The position numbers and the translations under genes are program-made. DNA of 64,000 bases from Bacillota bacterium (GTDB lineage Bacteria > Bacillota > Sulfobacillia > DUMF01): assembly GCA_012840015.1 (NCBI GenBank), contig DUMF01000025.1, forward strand, positions 62,001-126,000, written 5' to 3'. This document shows positions 46,138-54,792 of this stretch, piece after piece; positions within the stretch are counted from its first letter, which is position 1, and each line of letters begins with the position of its first letter. The notes under the pieces are model-generated. The model ran no database searches. It was given only the letters and a program-made list of their open reading frames with translations, and was not told the origin of the DNA.

Positions 46138-47535
46138 ATGAAGCTAGCGGCAATACCGGGTAGTGACCAGGTGAAAAAATTCCTGGCCGACACGGCATTG
46201 AATTACGCCATTGACTACCTTGCAAAAGACCCAGACCGTAACCTCCCAAAGCTCCTCAGCCTGATTGAGAAGCTTGCAACGGAACAGGGGCACAAAGATG
46301 CCGTGAACCTATTTAGAAAACGGGTATGCGGCGACCCCAAAGTTATGAGCCAGGTGAGAAGACTGGCTACTAACCCAAAAATGGTGAAGAAATTCATTTC
46401 GAACTGGGTTATAGCTTCTCAAATCATTGGAACACCTCGAAGAAGAGCCCTCGAGAAAGAGACTGGCCTGCATATCCCAAGTCTACTGTTGGTCGACCCC
46501 ACTTCAGCCTGCAACTTAAGATGCACCGGGTGTTGGGCGGGGGAGTACAGGAAGACAGATAGATTGGAGCCTGAGCTTTTCAGTCGCATAATCGACGAAG
46601 CCAAGGACCTGGGCATATACTGGATCGTGCTTTCGGGCGGAGAACCTTTTGCTTACCCGCAGCTATTGGATGTGGTAGCGCAGCATCCGGATATGGGATT
46701 CATGGCCTACACAAACGGTACCCTGATCGATGAAAAGACCGCTGACCGCCTTGCGGAACTCGGCAATTTATCCCCTGCCTTCAGCCTTGAAGGGCCGAGA
46801 GAACTTACAGACAGGCGCCGCGGCCAGGGCGTATTCGATAAAGTGATGAGGGCTATGGCTTTGCTCAGGGAACGCGGAGTTCTGTTTGGTGCCTCTCTAA
46901 CGGTCACCAGGGAGAACGCCGATGTGATATTTAGCGATGAATTTATCGATTTCTTGGTAGAACAGGGAGTAGTTTACTGCTGGAGTTTTCACTATATCCC
47001 GATCGGGCGTGGCCCCGATTTGAACATGATGATAACGCCAGAACAACGCGCCAAACTCGCCGAACGCGTACCATATATACGAGCCACCAAGCCAATCCTT
47101 ATGGCGGACTTCTGGAACGATGGTTATGCCACGGAAGGTTGCATCGCCGGCGGGCGGATGTACTTCCATATAAACGCAGCGGGAGACGTGGAACCGTGTG
47201 CGTTCGTGCACTTCGCGGTGGACAACATCAGAGAAAAGAGCCTCAAGGAAGTGTTAGCATCCCCGCTGTTCAAAGCTTACCAAAGAAGACAGCCCTTCCA
47301 CGAGAATCACTTGGCGCCTTGCCCGATTATAGATGCTCCGGAGGCGCTCCGCGAAATAGTTAAGGAGTCCGGGGCACACCCAACGCACCCTGGAGCAGAA
47401 GATGTGCTCACGGGCGAGACTGCTGCCTATCTCGACGAGTATTCAAAGAAATGGGTCCATTTGGCTGACGAGATAGTGGCTGCGCGGAACGAGGCAGCCA
47501 AGAAACAGATGTCTGTAGCTTCAGGGTCGAGGTGA
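46138..47535 (+). CDS. Radical SAM protein with SPASM-like C-terminus
   Basis: About 465 residues. A helical N-terminal domain of roughly 110 residues (AIDYLAKDPDRNLPKLLSLIEKL) precedes the radical SAM core with C-x3-C-x2-C at Cys125, Cys129 and Cys132 (SACNLRCTGCWAGEY) and LSGGEPFAYPQLL. The C-terminus has a truncated SPASM-like cluster site: GCIAGGRMYFHINAAGDVEPCAFVHFA and LAPCPIIDAPEALRE. Such proteins appear in anaerobes as putative lipid- or peptide-modifying enzymes; no small peptide substrate gene is visible here. ATG 46138 with AAAGGAG upstream. Function unknown. Confidence 0.8.
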   Translation: MKLAAIPGSDQVKKFLADTALNYAIDYLAKDPDRNLPKLLSLIEKLATEQGHKDAVNLFRKRVCGDPKVMSQVRRLATNPKMVKKFISNWVIASQIIGTPRRRALEKETGLHIPSLLLVDPTSACNLRCTGCWAGEYRKTDRLEPELFSRIIDEAKDLGIYWIVLSGGEPFAYPQLLDVVAQHPDMGFMAYTNGTLIDEKTADRLAELGNLSPAFSLEGPRELTDRRRGQGVFDKVMRAMALLRERGVLFGASLTVTRENADVIFSDEFIDFLVEQGVVYCWSFHYIPIGRGPDLNMMITPEQRAKLAERVPYIRATKPILMADFWNDGYATEGCIAGGRMYFHINAAGDVEPCAFVHFAVDNIREKSLKEVLASPLFKAYQRRQPFHENHLAPCPIIDAPEALREIVKESGAHPTHPGAEDVLTGETAAYLDEYSKKWVHLADEIVAARNEAAKKQMSVASGSR

Positions 47536-47551
47536 GGTGTGGAAAAAGGTA

Positions 47552-47580
47552 TTTACAGGTGGGTGGCCGGGTGTTATAAT
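47552..47580 (+). promoter_or_regulatory. Promoter of ilv-leu leader
   Basis: TTTACA (-35, 47552-47557), exactly 17 bases, and TATAAT (-10, 47575-47580). The match to consensus is 5/6 and 6/6. The expected transcript start (about 47587) lies a little before the first riboswitch. Confidence 0.85.
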
Positions 47581-47586
47581 CGGTGG

Positions 47587-47737
47587 CAATATAGCCGAAA
47601 CACCCGGAAGTGTACCTTAGGGTTCCGCCCGCGCGTCAGCGGGGACCGGGCCGAGCGGTACAGCCCCGTAAGTTAACTGGGGACACCGTGGGTATAAAAG
47701 ACCCGAGCGGAAAGTTCTGGGAGATGCCGCTCGGGTC
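47587..47737 (+). ncRNA. ykkC-class riboswitch (probably ppGpp-sensing, subtype 2a)
   Basis: Leader RNA with the ykkC conserved core: TTAGGGTTCCG, GACCGGGCCGAG, ACACCG and GGGTATAAAAGACCCG in order, with TGTACC (47610s) pairing to GGTACA (47657-47662) around the first two. A CCCC/GGGG hairpin follows. The class includes guanidine-I, ppGpp (2a), PRPP (2b) and nucleoside-diphosphate binders. Placement upstream of branched-chain amino acid genes is the known habit of ppGpp riboswitches, so 2a is preferred by context, not by proven ligand residues. The 3' end of the aptamer overlaps the first terminator hairpin, giving an on/off switch. Confidence 0.8.
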
Positions 47738-47742
47738 TTTTT
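47700..47742 (+). terminator. Riboswitch-controlled terminator 1
   Basis: GACCCGAGCGG (47700-47710) pairs with CCGCTCGGGTC (47727-47737), an 11-pair perfect stem, followed by TTTTT. The 5' arm contains the GACCCG that the aptamer uses to pair with GGGTATAAAAGACCC, so ligand binding and termination exclude each other. Confidence 0.88.
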
Positions 47743-47764
47743 ATATAGTTTTTAGGACACCGCG

Positions 47765-48056
47765 GTGGATGACAGCGACATAACGAAAAAGGCGAGGAAG
47801 GGAAAAGTAGCACCAGGCAACGAGGTACAGAGAACCGGCGGGTGGTGCGAGCCGGGCCCGCCCTGGCGGCGAAAGTCAACCCGGAGCCGTGTGTCGAGCG
47901 GAAGAGAAGTTGTTCTTCCAGGTAGGCATCAACCGTCTGGGGGCGTTACCCCTGGGTGCAAAAGCACCCGCTGAGGCACTGTTCCGCGAGGAACGTGCGA
48001 AGTAGGGTGGTACCACGACTTGAGCCCCTCGTCCCTATGGGAGGACGAGGGGCTCA
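47765..48056 (+). ncRNA. T-box leader (candidate valine specifier GUC)
   Basis: Complete T-box: stem I with AGAGAA-type AG bulge and GGTGGTGCGAGCCGG loop near 47831-47859, a specifier loop around 47875-47890 (GAAAGTCAACCCGGAG), and the antiterminator core AGGGTGGTACCACG (48004-48017) that binds uncharged tRNA NCCA. The terminator GAGCCCCTCGTCC / GGACGAGGGGCTC (48022-48034 / 48043-48055) follows. In the specifier loop the codon is normally followed by a purine; GTC then A fits, which would read tRNA-Val, consistent with the ilv genes. TCA (Ser) one register later cannot be excluded by eye. Confidence 0.88.
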
Positions 48057-48063
48057 TTGTATT
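48022..48063 (+). terminator. T-box-controlled terminator 2
   Basis: A 13-pair stem of GAGCCCCTCGTCC (48022-48034) with GGACGAGGGGCTC (48043-48055) and a T-rich tail (ATTGTATTT). Alternative to the antiterminator at 48004. Confidence 0.85.
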
Positions 48064-48083
48064 TGGAAGGGAGGTGAACAAAG

Positions 48084-48704
48084 ATGAAGCACACTCTAGC
48101 CGCTCTAGTGGAGAACACGCCCGGCACTTTGATGCGGATAGCAGGATTGTTTGCACGCAGGGGGTTCAATATCGAAAGCTTGTCGGTGGGAGCCACACAT
48201 GATCCTACCAAGTCCAGGATGACCATAGTGGTCGATGGGGACGAGCGGACGATAGAACAGGTATCGAAACAGCTAAACAAGCTCATCAACGTAATCAAGG
48301 TATCAGATTTGACGATGGACGATCACGTAGCCAGGGAAATCGCTCTGGTCAAGATACACGCTCCCTCTCTTCGACGCTATGCTCTGATGCAAATCGTGGA
48401 GGTGTTTCGCGGGAAGGTAATCGACATTGCGAGGGAAAGCCTCACCGTGGAGATGACAGGCGACGAGGAGAAGGTTCAGGCGTTTCTCGAGCTGGCCAAA
48501 GAGTTTGGGATTAAAGAAGTAGTGCGAACCGGCAAAATCGCTATGGCTCGCGGGTCAAAAAGACTGCATGTGACAGAGGAGGAAGAGACAGATGGCAAAG
48601 ATCTATTACGACGGCGACGCGGATTTGAGGGTACTCGAGGGCAAGCAAGTTGCGGTTCTGGGTTACGGCAGCCAAGGGCATGCGCAAGCGCAGAATCTAA
48701 ATGA
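48084..48704 (+). CDS. ilvN: Acetolactate synthase regulatory subunit IlvN
   Basis: Small subunit of acetohydroxyacid synthase; binds valine for feedback control. ACT domain [32 protein letters not shown], with the second domain ending around [14 protein letters not shown]. Family proteins stop at about 165-170 residues, but this frame continues to 206, running 113 bases into ilvC in another frame; the extra about 35 residues ([14 protein letters not shown]...) show no family likeness. GGGAGGTGAAC precedes the ATG. First gene of the operon; its large subunit IlvB is last, an unusual separation. Confidence 0.92.
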
Positions 48705-49584
48705 CAGCGGGGTCAACGTGGTAGTCGGCCTGAGGAAGGGCAGCCCGAACTGGGAAAGAGCACAGGCGGATGGACTCAGGGTCATGGAGATCGAAGAGGC
48801 TGTGCGTACCTCCGACGTGGTACAGGTACTTATCCCTGACGATAGGCAGCCCGAGCTATTCAAAGAGGTTATTGAGCCAAACATAAAAAAGGGCGCTGCA
48901 CTCGGGTTTTCCCACGGTTTTAATGTCCACTATAACCAGGTGGTGCCACCCGAGCACGCGGACGTATTTATGGTAGCACCCAAGGCCCCAGGCCATCAGT
49001 TCAGATACGAGTTCAAGAACGGAGCCGGGGTACCCGGGCTCGTCGCAATCTACCGTGACGCTTCAGGGGAAGCTCTCAAGATCGCCCTGGCATATGCCAA
49101 AGGAATCGGCTGTACGCGGGCCGGAGTGATCGAGACCACCTTCAAAGAAGAGACCGAAACTGATTTGTTCGGCGAGCAAGCGGTGCTTTGCGGTGGTGTT
49201 TCGGAACTCATCAAGGCGGGATTCGAGACCCTGGTAGAGGCGGGGTACCAGCCGGAGATAGCATACTTTGAGTGTCTAAATGAACTCAAGCTTATCGTGG
49301 ACTTGATTTATAAAGGTGGGCTCACTTACATGCGGTTCTCGGTAAGCGACACGGCCGAGTTCGGGGATTACACCTCCGGCAAGAAAGTGATCGGCCCTGC
49401 CAGCCGCCAGGCGATGAAAGAACTTTTGGAAAGGATTCAGAACGGCGAATGGGCCAAAGAATGGATACTTGAGAATAAGGCCAACAGGCCGGTGTTCAAT
49501 GCCATTAAAAAGAGAGAGGCAGAGCACCAAATCGAACAAGTAGGGAAGAAACTGAGGGCTATGATGCCATGGCTGAACCGATAG
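48592..49584 (+). CDS. ilvC: Ketol-acid reductoisomerase
   Basis: Class I KARI (330 residues), NAD(P)H-dependent, in valine, isoleucine and leucine synthesis. [32 protein letters not shown] is the nucleotide loop. [17 protein letters not shown] and [30 protein letters not shown] form the metal and substrate region. [11 protein letters not shown] follows the catalytic HG(F)NVHY segment. Start ATG with GGAGGAAG upstream inside the ilvN frame. Confidence 0.96.
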
Positions 49585-49597
49585 GGGGGAGAAAGGC

Positions 49598-51133
49598 GTG
49601 GGCATAGTCAAGTTCTTCGATACGACACTGCGAGACGGAGAACAAACGCCGGGGGTCAACCTAAGTGCGAGGGAAAAACTAGAAATCGCCAGACAGTTGG
49701 CAAGGCTCAAGGTAGACGTCATCGAAGCGGGTTTCCCCATTACTTCGGTGGGAGATTTCGAAGCCGTGAAGGCGATTGCAGAAAAAGTAGAAGGTCCGGT
49801 AATTGCGGCGCTTGCCAGAGCCAACAAAGCTGACATCGATCGAGCCTGGGAAGCGGTGAAATACTCCAAAAGGCCGCGGATTCATACTTTCATCGCTACA
49901 TCTCCGATTCACATGCAATGTAAGCTGAAGAAGTCGCCGGAAGAGGTCCTAAAGACGGCACGTGAGGCAGTGGCGTATGCAAAAAGCCTGTGCGATGACG
50001 TGGAATTCTCAGCGGAAGACGCGACTAGAAGCGATCCGGATTTTCTTTGCACGGTGTTCGGTGCAGCAGTGGAAGCCGGCGCAACAGTTATCAACATCCC
50101 GGATACGGTTGGGTATACGACTCCTGAGGAATTCCGCAGGCTGTTGAGATACGTAAAGGAGCACACTCCCGGCATTTGCAGCGTGGAATTGAGCGTGCAC
50201 TGCCATAACGACCTCGGTTTAGCTGTGGCGAATTCCCTGGCTGCCATAGAAGAAGGGGTCACTCAGATTGAGTGTACCGTAAACGGCATTGGGGAGCGCG
50301 CAGGCAACACTTCGCTAGAAGAGGTAGCTATGGCGCTTTACGTCAGGAGAGATCAGTATGCCAAGACGTTCCAGCTCGATACCACACAGATCTATAAATC
50401 GAGCAAGCTAGTTTCCGCGTTGACCGGCATTAGCGTTCAACCTAACAAGGCAGTGGTGGGGATGAATGCTTTCGCACATCAGTCGGGCATTCATCAGGAT
50501 GGGGTATTAAAAGAGCGCACTACTTACGAAATAATGAATCCCCAGGTGGTGGGGGTGCCGTCGAACAGATTGGTACTGGGGAAAGTATCCGGCCGCCATG
50601 CCTTCAGGGAGAAGTTGCGTGAAATGGGCTATGAACCAAGCGAAGCTGAGGTGGAAAAGCTTTTCAGGGAGTTCAAACTGTTGTGCGATAGAAAGAAAGA
50701 AGTGCACGACGAAGATTTGCAGGCTCTTCTCGAGAACGAGCTCAGGAGCGTGCCCGAGGAAATTAAGCTGGAGTACTTCCACGTTACCAGCGGCAACAAT
50801 ACCGTTCCTACAGCTACTATCCGTATAAGCCAGGCCGGGCGGTACTTACAGGAGGCTGCCAGCGGCGATGGCCCGATAGACGCCCTATTCAATGCCATCG
50901 ACCGGGCTACGGGTTTCAACTGCCATCTCATCGAGTATTCCCTAAAAGCTGTGACGAGTGGCAAGGACGCTCTGGGCGAGGTCAGCCTCAAACTGCAATT
51001 CCAGGATAGGTCTTATACAGGCAGGGGTATAAGCACCGACGTAATCGAAGCCAGCGTCAGGGCATACATGAACGCACTGAACAGGCTTTTGATGGACACC
51101 CCTGGACTCGTGATCGGGAGTGAAGCGGTGTGA
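49598..51133 (+). CDS. leuA: 2-isopropylmalate synthase LeuA
   Basis: Condenses acetyl-CoA with 2-oxoisovalerate. FFDTTLRDGEQTPGVNLSAREKL opens the TIM barrel. GIGERAGNTSLEEVAMAL and HQSGIHQDGVLK contain the metal histidines (HCHNDLGLAVANS is also seen). The C-terminal regulatory domain, residues about 390-511, with LQFQDRSYTGRGISTDVIEASVRAY, gives leucine feedback in relatives. Length 511 is normal. GTG start with GGGGGGAG upstream. Overlaps leuB by four bases. Confidence 0.95.
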   Translation: MGIVKFFDTTLRDGEQTPGVNLSAREKLEIARQLARLKVDVIEAGFPITSVGDFEAVKAIAEKVEGPVIAALARANKADIDRAWEAVKYSKRPRIHTFIATSPIHMQCKLKKSPEEVLKTAREAVAYAKSLCDDVEFSAEDATRSDPDFLCTVFGAAVEAGATVINIPDTVGYTTPEEFRRLLRYVKEHTPGICSVELSVHCHNDLGLAVANSLAAIEEGVTQIECTVNGIGERAGNTSLEEVAMALYVRRDQYAKTFQLDTTQIYKSSKLVSALTGISVQPNKAVVGMNAFAHQSGIHQDGVLKERTTYEIMNPQVVGVPSNRLVLGKVSGRHAFREKLREMGYEPSEAEVEKLFREFKLLCDRKKEVHDEDLQALLENELRSVPEEIKLEYFHVTSGNNTVPTATIRISQAGRYLQEAASGDGPIDALFNAIDRATGFNCHLIEYSLKAVTSGKDALGEVSLKLQFQDRSYTGRGISTDVIEASVRAYMNALNRLLMDTPGLVIGSEAV

Positions 51134-52227
51134 AGATAGCCATTCTCCCGGGGGACGGCATAGGGCCTGAGGTAATGGCAGAAGCGGTAAAAGTACTGAG
51201 ACGAGCCGGCGATATCTTCGGCTATACCTTGGAATTCGAGGAGGCAGCCGTTGGCGGTGCAGCGATCGACCTGTATGGGGATCCACTCCCGGAGAGGACT
51301 CTTCAAGTAGCGCTGGAAGCCGACGCTGTATTGTTCGGGGCAGTCGGGGGGCCTAAGTGGGATAATCAGCCCCCCGAACGTCGCCCGGAACAAGGGATCC
51401 TGCGCTTGAGGAAGAGGCTGGGGCTCTATGTCAACATGAGGCCGGCTACGCTTTATCCAGAACTGATAGAATCGAGCCCCTTAAAAAAGGCGGCTGTGGA
51501 CGGCGGTTTCGACATGCTCATCGTGAGGGAACTTTCGTCGGGGCTCTATTACGGTGAGCCCAAAGAAAGGCGAACTATCGGAGGGGTTAGGCAGGCGATA
51601 GATACCCTCTTTTACTCGGAGAAGGAGATAGAAAGGTGCGTCAGGAGTGCCTTCGACGCGGCTATGTCCAGGCGGAGGAAAGTCACGTCTGTGGACAAAG
51701 CCAACGTTCTCATGGCCTCGCGGCTCTGGCGGGAAGTCGTCGAGGAGGTTGCGCGGGACTACCCTGAAGTGCAAGTGGAGCACCAGTATGTGGACGCCTG
51801 CGCGATGTTACTCGTAAGAGAACCAAAGCGATTCGACGTTCTGGTCACGGAGAATACATTCGGGGACATCTTGAGCGACCTAGCGGGTGCTATCACGGGT
51901 TCGTTGGGGATGTTGCCTTCGGCAAGCCTGGGAGCAGGCGGTCGTGGGCTTTACGAACCGATCCATGGCTCGGCACCGGATATTGCGGGGAAGGGGATTG
52001 CCAACCCTGTCGGCGCTATTCTATCGGGGGCCATGATGCTCGAGTATGCGTTCGGATTGAGACATCCCGCTCAGGCGATAAGGAGGGCAGTTCGGCGTGT
52101 GTTGGGCTCTGGTTACGTTACCCCGGACTTGGTTAGGGGACATACGGGGACGCAAACAGTAGTGAATACCAGGCAGATGGGTGATCTCGTAGTGGAACAA
52201 ATATTGAAGGAGGATGAAAGGTTATGA
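51130..52227 (+). CDS. leuB: 3-isopropylmalate dehydrogenase LeuB
   Basis: Oxidative decarboxylase of leucine synthesis. [89 protein letters not shown] and [20 protein letters not shown] are all conserved, with GAVGGPKWD and EQGILRLRK excluding isocitrate dehydrogenase. 365 residues. GTG start. The isomerase subunits leuC and leuD are not in this operon. Confidence 0.96.
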
Positions 52228-53111
52228 ACCCTAATAGGGTTGTTTATGTCGACGGAGAGTTCGTCCCAGCATGTGAGGCGAAAGTTTCAGTCTTCGACCA
52301 CGGTTTCCTATATGGGGATGGAGTGTTCGAAGGGATAAGGGCATACAACGGCAGGGTGTTTCGTCTTACCGAGCATCTCGACAGGCTATACGAGTCGGCG
52401 AGGGCAATCGCCTTGGAGATACCAGTGAGCTGGTCCGAAATGGAACGGATAACCCTAGAGACCGTGCGTCGAAATGGGCTGCGGGACGCCTATATCCGTC
52501 TCGTGGTTTCCCGGGGAGTTGGCGACCTAGGTTTAGATCCTAGAAAGTGTCAGAAGCCAACGATTGTATGTATTGCTGATTCAATCACCCTTTACCCGAA
52601 GGAACTTTACGAAACAGGCCTGAAGGTGATGACTGTACCGACTAGGCGCGTGGCAGTAGATGCGTTGAACCCGAGGGTAAAGTCGCTCAACTACCTTAAC
52701 AACATACTTGCCAAGATCGAAGCCAACCTGGTGGGGATGGCAGAGGTCATAATGTTGAGCCCAGAAGGATACGTCGTAGAGGCCACGGGAGACAACGTGT
52801 TTATTGTCAAGAAATCTAAACTTATCACGCCCCCCTCCTATATGGGTATCCTTGAGGGCATCACGCGGGCGACCATAATGGAGCTTGCTCCTGCGCTCGG
52901 GCTCACTGTGGTTGAACAGCCTCTGACGAGGCACGATCTGTATGTGGCAGATGAGTGTTTCCTCACAGGTACCGCAGCAGAAGCCATACCGGTGGTGGAA
53001 ATCGATGGGCGGAAAATCCGAGACGGGAAGCCCGGAAAGTATACCCTCGAGCTGATTGAGCTTTTCAGGGACTATGCCAATTCACACGGCACCCCCGTCT
53101 ATGAACCATAA
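52224..53111 (+). CDS. ilvE: Branched-chain amino acid aminotransferase
   Basis: PLP class IV aminotransferase. [23 protein letters not shown] is the N-terminal signature, Lys153 in [17 protein letters not shown] the PLP lysine, and [19 protein letters not shown] with the C-terminal [20 protein letters not shown]. 295 residues. ATG overlaps leuB by four bases. Class IV enzymes include D-alanine aminotransferase-like relatives; the operon makes IlvE the natural call. Confidence 0.94.
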
Positions 53112-53133
53112 CATTTGAGGTGGTGGTACCCAT

Positions 53134-54792
53134 ATGAAGGGCGCGCGGATACTGCTGGAGAGTCTAACACGCGAGGGGTGTGACCTCGTGTTTGGCTACC
53201 CGGGCGGGGCCGTGGTGGACCTGTACGACGAACTGCTAAACTATCCCATAAGGCATGTGCTGGTTCGGCACGAGCAGGCGGCTGCACACGCTGCAGACGG
53301 GTACGCCAGAGCCACGGGCAAAGTAGGTGTTTGTTTTACGACGTCCGGACCGGGTGCCACCAACCTGGTTTCCGGCATTGCCTGTGCATACATGGATTCT
53401 GTCCCCATAGTTGCCTTCACCGGCCAGGTGAGCGCGAGGTTGCTCGGTAGAGATGCTTTCCAGGAAGCAGACCTTACAGGGATAACAGTACCCATAACCA
53501 AACATAACTATCTGGTCAAAGATGTAGCTGATCTGGCCCGGGTCGTCAAGGAAGCTTTTCACATCGCCTCCACGGGACGGCCCGGACCCGTGCTTGTGGA
53601 CTTGCCGAAAGACGTGATCATGGGCGAAGCTGAGTTCAGACCCGTCAAGAGGGTGCACTTGCCTGGCTACAAGCCCACCTATAAGGGCAATCTGCCTCAG
53701 ATCGCCAAAGCGGCCAACCTGTTGAACAATTCCCTCCGCCCTGTAGCGCTCATCGGTGGTGGCGTGGTATCTTCGGGGGCCTCCGATGCGGTCACTGCTC
53801 TTTGCGAGAAAGCGGAGATTCCTATCGTATGTACTCTAATGGGTCTGGGAGGAGTACGCTCCGACCACCATTTGAACTTCGGCCTAGTCGGAATGCACGG
53901 CTCGATTGCCGCTAACAACGCAGTTCAACATTGCGATCTTCTGATCGGATTGGGCACTAGGTTCACTGACCGGACCACGGGTCTTGTGGAACAATTCGCT
54001 CCGCGTGCTATGGTAATACACATTGACATCGATCCGGCTGAGATCGGCAAGAACGTGAGAGTGAACGTGCCGGTGGTTGGTCATCTGTCGTACGTCATAC
54101 CGGAGTTACTGAAGCTGGTCAACGAAAACGACCACAGTGAATGGATCAAGCAGATTAAGTCGTGGCAGAAGGAACCGGAGACCCGCTGTGCCGAACCGGG
54201 GGAAATAGAGCCCAGGATCGTTTTAGAGGAACTTATGAAAAGAGTGCCAAAAAACACGATAGTGGCTACCGATGTCGGGCAGCACCAAATGTGGGTGGCT
54301 CAGCACTGGAAATTCACCGCTCCCAGACGATTGCTGTCTTCCGGAGGACTCGGGTGCATGGGTTACGGCTTGCCGGCAGCTGTGGGTGCCCAATTGGGCA
54401 AACCGGACCACACCGTCATTTTGATCACCGGTGACGGTAGCTTCCAGATGAACATGCAAGAATTGGCCACGGTGAAAGCCAACTCGTTGCCTATCAAGAT
54501 ATTCCTGTTCAATAACGGATGCCTTGGCATGGTACGCCAATGGCAGGACCTGCTTTACCACAAACGTTATTCTCAGGTTGAGTTGTTCTGTAACCCCGAC
54601 TTCCCAGCTATCGCGAGGGCATACGGCCTCGAAGGGCGTACCATATCATCTCCGGATGAAGTAGGTCCATCCATCGTGGAGGCCTTGACGCACGATGGCC
54701 CCTTCTTGGTCGATATTCGCATACCTGCCGAGCAGAACGTTTACCCCATGGTGCCAGCCGGGAAGGCGCTTGACGAAGCGATCTTACCTTGA
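53134..54792 (+). CDS. ilvB: Acetolactate synthase catalytic subunit IlvB
   Basis: ThDP-dependent large subunit. ILLESLTREGCDLVFGYPGGAVVDLYDEL, HEQAAAHAADGYARATGKVGVCFTTSGPGATNLVSGIA (the activating Glu in RHEQ), KHNYLVKDV, GDGSFQMNMQELATVK with the ThDP-binding GDG...N signature, and NNGCLGMVRQWQDL. 552 residues. Last in the operon, after ilvE; partner is IlvN at the front. The 3' end overlaps the convergent hisC by nine bases. Confidence 0.95.
   Translation: MKGARILLESLTREGCDLVFGYPGGAVVDLYDELLNYPIRHVLVRHEQAAAHAADGYARATGKVGVCFTTSGPGATNLVSGIACAYMDSVPIVAFTGQVSARLLGRDAFQEADLTGITVPITKHNYLVKDVADLARVVKEAFHIASTGRPGPVLVDLPKDVIMGEAEFRPVKRVHLPGYKPTYKGNLPQIAKAANLLNNSLRPVALIGGGVVSSGASDAVTALCEKAEIPIVCTLMGLGGVRSDHHLNFGLVGMHGSIAANNAVQHCDLLIGLGTRFTDRTTGLVEQFAPRAMVIHIDIDPAEIGKNVRVNVPVVGHLSYVIPELLKLVNENDHSEWIKQIKSWQKEPETRCAEPGEIEPRIVLEELMKRVPKNTIVATDVGQHQMWVAQHWKFTAPRRLLSSGGLGCMGYGLPAAVGAQLGKPDHTVILITGDGSFQMNMQELATVKANSLPIKIFLFNNGCLGMVRQWQDLLYHKRYSQVELFCNPDFPAIARAYGLEGRTISSPDEVGPSIVEALTHDGPFLVDIRIPAEQNVYPMVPAGKALDEAILP

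Follow-up and report, generated by a model that had tools for sequence, protein, structure and literature searches.

The closest described counterparts of the leader treated here are tandems of a ppGpp riboswitch and a T-box specific for tRNA-Leu, in which two modules with separate expression platforms are located upstream of branched-chain amino acid operons and are predicted to act as an AND gate. Thirty-one examples are tabulated in PMC9481103, 15 of the order ppGpp/T box-Leu and 16 of the order T box-Leu/ppGpp, with the 2018 work on the ppGpp riboswitch being cited for the tandem in Table 2 and in the text; the AND logic of the pair is repeated in PMC6031431. A valine T-box is known from another heterologous tandem of the same compilation, AdoCbl/T box-Val, but there the first sensor is a B12-responsive OFF switch and the regulated gene is valS (PMC9481103). 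In a 2025 survey (PMC12452182), tandems of the ppGpp/T-box kind on branched-chain amino acid operons are labelled T-box/Guanidine and interpreted through guanidine. The ligand classes differ at defined aptamer positions: position 49 is a pyrimidine in ppGpp and PRPP aptamers (C49 of the PRPP aptamer) and A in guanidine-I aptamers, position 96 is G in PRPP aptamers and is absent or A, C or U in ppGpp aptamers, and C75-A76-C77 is a ligand-contacting stretch (PMC6031431).

In the window, which is the whole analysed stretch of 64,000 nucleotides, a ppGpp-type aptamer is followed by a T-box within a single leader, and sequence and folds indicate a separate expression platform for each of them. The leader shares with the ppGpp/T box-Leu gate of PMC9481103 the two modules, the ppGpp-first order, the separate platforms, the branched-chain amino acid operon and the predicted AND logic, but its T-box carries GUC (valine) in place of a tRNA-Leu specifier, and valine is unlisted for this pair. 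Judged by its specifier, it would be a sister form of the ppGpp/T box-Leu gate and not a leucine member. The sequence-only reading had stated that such tandems are known in outline; known they are, but the wording understates the literature, since arrangement and AND logic are already on record as a prediction and no difference other than the valine specifier was found. The elements are the following.

47552-47580, plus strand: sigma-70-type promoter, TTTACA-17-TATAAT with extended -10 TG, 11 of 12 matches
47603-47721, plus strand: ykkC subtype 2a (ppGpp) aptamer including the outer helix P1, assigned from the Rfam match, models R1 and R2 and folds
47603-47609 with 47715-47721, plus strand: outer helix P1, 7 pairs, from folds and covariation
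47656, plus strand: C, equivalent of position 49, by alignment to RF00442 and the rule of PMC6031431
47684-47686, plus strand: CAC, equivalent of C75-A76-C77 (PMC6031431), assigned by alignment
47706, plus strand: A, equivalent of position 96, assigned by alignment, within CCCGAGCGG
47700-47742, plus strand: intrinsic terminator 1, from sequence, fold (-23.0 kcal/mol) and growing-transcript folds
47786-48039, plus strand: T-box leader from stem I to the antiterminator, RF00230, 78.5 bits, E 2.4e-17
47875-47877, plus strand: specifier codon GUC (valine), from covariance-model alignments
48004-48036, plus strand: T-box antiterminator AGGGUGGUACCACGA...UCGUCCCU, from sequence
48021-48056, plus strand: intrinsic terminator 2, 14 pairs, -29.9 kcal/mol, predicted fold
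48084-54792, plus strand: regulated operon ilvN-ilvC-leuA-leuB-ilvE-ilvB, each gene matched above cut-off by an NCBIfam equivalog or subfamily model

Within 47450-48150, both strands considered, the promoter is the sole promoter-like site, compared with 0.1 in shuffled sequence; a second promoter between the ykkC-class RNA and the T-box was sought in the same region on both strands and was not found, which bears out the single promoter noted beforehand for both RNAs. Downstream of terminator 2, a ribosome site precedes the ATG at 48084. The names given by NCBIfam to the six genes are identical to those of the sequence-only reading. The ilvN frame (48084-48704) overlaps ilvC (48592-49584) by 113 nt in a different frame; the IlvN family ends at about residue 161, though the frame of the window extends beyond this into ilvC, and an ilvC start 508 nt after the ilvN start is also seen in relatives (e.g., L017, L160 and L222).

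A scan of the whole window with Rfam at curated cut-offs reported neither the ykkC-like RNA nor the T-box, nor any other match. The search with the Rfam ykkC-family and T-box models, which had been proposed as a check, does return both RNAs under permissive settings, but each under its cut-off: the first RNA (47605-47711) matches RF00442 (Guanidine-I) with 47.7 bits and an E-value of 1.9e-7 (cut-off 63), this being its only meaningful Rfam match, and the T-box matches RF00230 with the score listed above (cut-off 93). A scan at curated cut-offs alone would thus mislead, being blank for both RNAs. Matches to RF00442 were gathered from 154 genomes of the class and from named genomes, and two models were trained with the window omitted, R1 on ilv/leu-context leaders of other genomes and R2 on purine-context leaders. 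On the window, where the ykkC core fold and conserved core sequence are recognized, R1 gives 108.7 bits (E about 3e-26 over 173 kb) and R2 gives 49.4 bits; held-out ilv-type leaders are separated by the two models in a similar way. Purine-context leaders reach 64-78 bits with R1 and 88-132 bits with R2, the latter having been trained on these same leaders, and R1 scores for guanidine-I loci of the class are as low as 32-48 bits. Across the phylum, 214 of 398 sampled genomes have R1 matches, some of which will be PRPP members. Elsewhere in the window, 37804-37905 matches n00280 of Rfam below threshold (42.8 bits, E 0.0011); n00280 is an sRNA of Clostridioides difficile for which a location within a helicase gene is described.

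Which ligand the first RNA would bind is indicated by the subtype-defining positions, among other evidence; their comparison had likewise been suggested in advance. With C47656 at position 49, A47706 at position 96, CAC at positions 75-77 and a P1 helix that competes with a terminator, the window RNA shows no essential difference from the ppGpp riboswitch 2a (PMC6031431, PMC10687018), its ligand being predicted. At the position-96 stretch, leaders in ilv/leu context read CCCGAGCGG, as in the window, CCCGGCGG, CCCAAGCGG or similar, and those in purine context (purine permease, purB, purE) read CCCGGGCGGG in most cases and close variants otherwise. A PRPP (ykkC 2b) riboswitch, by which the gate would couple valine to purine precursor supply, is highly improbable: few positions separate 2a from 2b and the RF00442 match cannot tell them apart, but R2 scores far below R1, the gene context is ilv/leu, and the G diagnostic of PRPP aptamers, present at the position-96 equivalent in all 11 purine-context leaders (three of which, L014, L016 and L082, are without a clean downstream reading frame and were assigned by similarity), is replaced by A. 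Even less credence is given to the guanidine-I riboswitch suggested by the Rfam name and by the interpretation in PMC12452182, since position 49 is C and not A, guanidine genes are absent nearby, guanidine-I loci score poorly with R1, and P1 is present and covaries. Over 27 leaders, P1 and the other helices covary with a value of 0.405 against 0.167 after shuffling, and in P1 both sides have changed in four of five pairs. The diagnostic positions and the scores with R1 and R2 therefore reject membership in the guanidine-I and PRPP classes, while the call of subtype 2a (ppGpp) made in the sequence-only reading is supported by those positions, by the model comparison and by the gene context.

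The terminator of the first switch is a perfect 11-pair stem (47700-47710 with 47727-47737) followed by UUUUU at 47738-47742, merged with the ykkC core exactly as first described. The 3' strand of P4 doubles as its 5' arm, and the 3' strand of P1 lies within its loop. In growing-transcript folds, aptamer and terminator are predicted to exclude each other: transcripts reaching as far as 47730 form the four-way-junction aptamer, and those that include 47737 form the terminator; at 47745, the terminator is 11.5 kcal/mol more stable than the fold with P1 forced, folding energies here ignoring pseudoknots, tertiary contacts, ligands and growth temperature. The same antitermination scheme, acting as an ON switch, has been shown experimentally for a ppGpp riboswitch (PMC10687018), so that the order of aptamer and terminator folds points to an ON switch here, with P1 stabilised against a terminator overlapping P4 as in the described 2a riboswitches (PMC6031431, PMC10687018). 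In the absence of ppGpp, the P4 and P1 strands would be drawn into the terminator and transcription would stop; in its presence, P1 and P4 would hold and RNA polymerase would read through. A terminator-like stem overlapping P4 was found in 84 of 114 leaders by a simple hairpin scan, whose loose criteria make it a rough guide only. A RelA/SpoT frame of 730 amino acids is encoded in the genome.

The second switch has the attributes of a T-box riboswitch (RF00230), namely, stem I with AG bulge and specifier loop, the T-box motif AGGGUGGUACCACG at 48004-48017 and a terminator/antiterminator pair, and differs from it in its score under the Rfam cut-off and in an A-A mismatch below the specifier. 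The full T-box with its own terminator, as claimed beforehand, is borne out, but the stem of the latter comprises 14 pairs and not 13. The specifier, the amino acid of which was left unnamed by the sequence-only reading, is read as GUC (valine) from alignment. Its register is supported by the same specifier position in other T-boxes of the genome, where it gives the expected amino acids, Thr for thrB, Met for metG, Ala for alaS and Leu for leuS, the gene identities being read from the protein starts. The UGGU bulge at 48008-48011 pairs with tRNA ACCA (A73), and the tRNA-Val(GAC) of the genome, ending in CC-A-CCA, has the required A73. The one extra base, A47879, between GUC-A and the CCC stem forms an A-A mismatch atop the lower stem, by which the specifier loop appears slightly unusual. 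With GUC being read by stem I, uncharged tRNA-Val(GAC) would bind specifier and UGGU bulge and would stabilise the antiterminator, thereby preventing the terminator at 48021-48056. The genome contains a second valine (GUC) T-box (L006, G000:C4:16435-16730, minus strand) ahead of a lipoprotein-like protein, possibly the substrate-binding protein of an amino acid transporter.

If the T-box read leucine, as in the published tandems, or used another register, the valine assignment would be a misreading. This is very unlikely, even though 26 of the 29 ppGpp-first tandems collected read CUC and an extra base lies below the specifier of the window: the specifier loop is without any CUC, the covariance model and the fixed spacing to GAGC lead to GUC as in L023, L071 and L006, and the nearest alternative register, UCA, would call for tRNA-Ser, the G73 of which conflicts with UGGU. 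The leucine specifier and the serine register are rejected for these reasons. A weightier doubt, though an unlikely one, concerns the logic: with the modules as described, leaky terminators, an unmapped start within the leader or a correlation between the inputs might make one module dominant, so that no strict AND would result. The biological correlation of the inputs and the presence of CodY speak for it; against it stand the predicted strength of both terminators and the finding of only one promoter-like site in 47450-48150.

The account of two independent ON riboswitches, ppGpp followed by T-box-Val, behind one promoter and acting as an AND gate is accordingly considered very probable as a whole. 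As both switches are of the ON type and lie one after the other downstream of a single promoter, we infer that full transcription of ilvNC-leuAB-ilvEB would need ppGpp and uncharged tRNA-Val together, as the sequence-only reading had supposed for two terminators in series, and that the gate would fire when valine shortage is so pronounced that the stringent signal rises. Since ppGpp is itself increased by uncharged tRNA, the two inputs are correlated rather than independent. CodY is also encoded in the genome, and starvation control of the operon may include a protein layer through it. With correlated inputs and CodY, the gate may work as a threshold filter and not as an AND gate of the textbook kind.

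Tandems upstream of ilv/leu genes recur in 40 other leaders. Among the 41 distinct leaders read, the window included, many are related, and the counts are therefore not independent; 29 are ppGpp-first, 26 with CUC (Leu) and three with GUC (Val; the window, L023 and L071), and 12 are T-box-first, ten with AUC (Ile) and two without a confident reading. The ten AUC leaders lie upstream of ilvE (L151, L155, L158, L165, L167, L202, L214, L224, L261 and L267), and their isoleucine codon does not match the "Leu" label given to that order in the table of PMC9481103. In the leader of the window and in related leaders, the subtype evidence favours ppGpp over the guanidine reading of PMC12452182.

A separate observation concerns the leuS T-box leader of the genome (G000:C19:31303-31603, minus strand; L144, L008, L228), which lies outside the window and has the specifier CUC. 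Between stem III and the antiterminator it holds an entire tRNA-Ala(GGC) gene, the CCA of which is encoded. Further loci of this kind are L229-L237 and L270-L273. A pattern search for a tRNA-CCA followed within 5-35 nt by GGGTGGTACC found the arrangement in 18 of 154 genomes of the class and in 76 of 398 genomes of the phylum, the reversed pattern used as a control giving 0; the anticodon is GGC in all 14 loci read, and a readable LeuS frame follows in most. A distance of 5-35 nt separates the CCA end of the tRNA-Ala from the UGGU by which uncharged tRNA is read, and processing of the tRNA-Ala would cut the leuS riboswitch. No published description of a tRNA-Ala within a leuS T-box leader was found in the literature searched, and its occurrence in many Bacillota is perhaps more interesting than the tandem.

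Summarizing, the leader is probably an unreported ppGpp/T box-Val AND gate, by which the leucine and valine pathway genes of one operon would be placed under valine tRNA and alarmone. The same reading makes it one instance of a broader pattern: the ppGpp module would remain unchanged, and the T-box codon would be exchanged between lineages (Leu or Val when the T-box follows, Ile when it precedes). A ppGpp switch can stand behind an Rfam annotation of T-box plus Guanidine-I on a branched-chain amino acid leader, a point of relevance to the guanidine interpretation in PMC12452182. To the small set of natural RNA-only two-input gates a valine-reading case would be added, suggesting that the amino acid input of the ppGpp/T-box gate is exchangeable.
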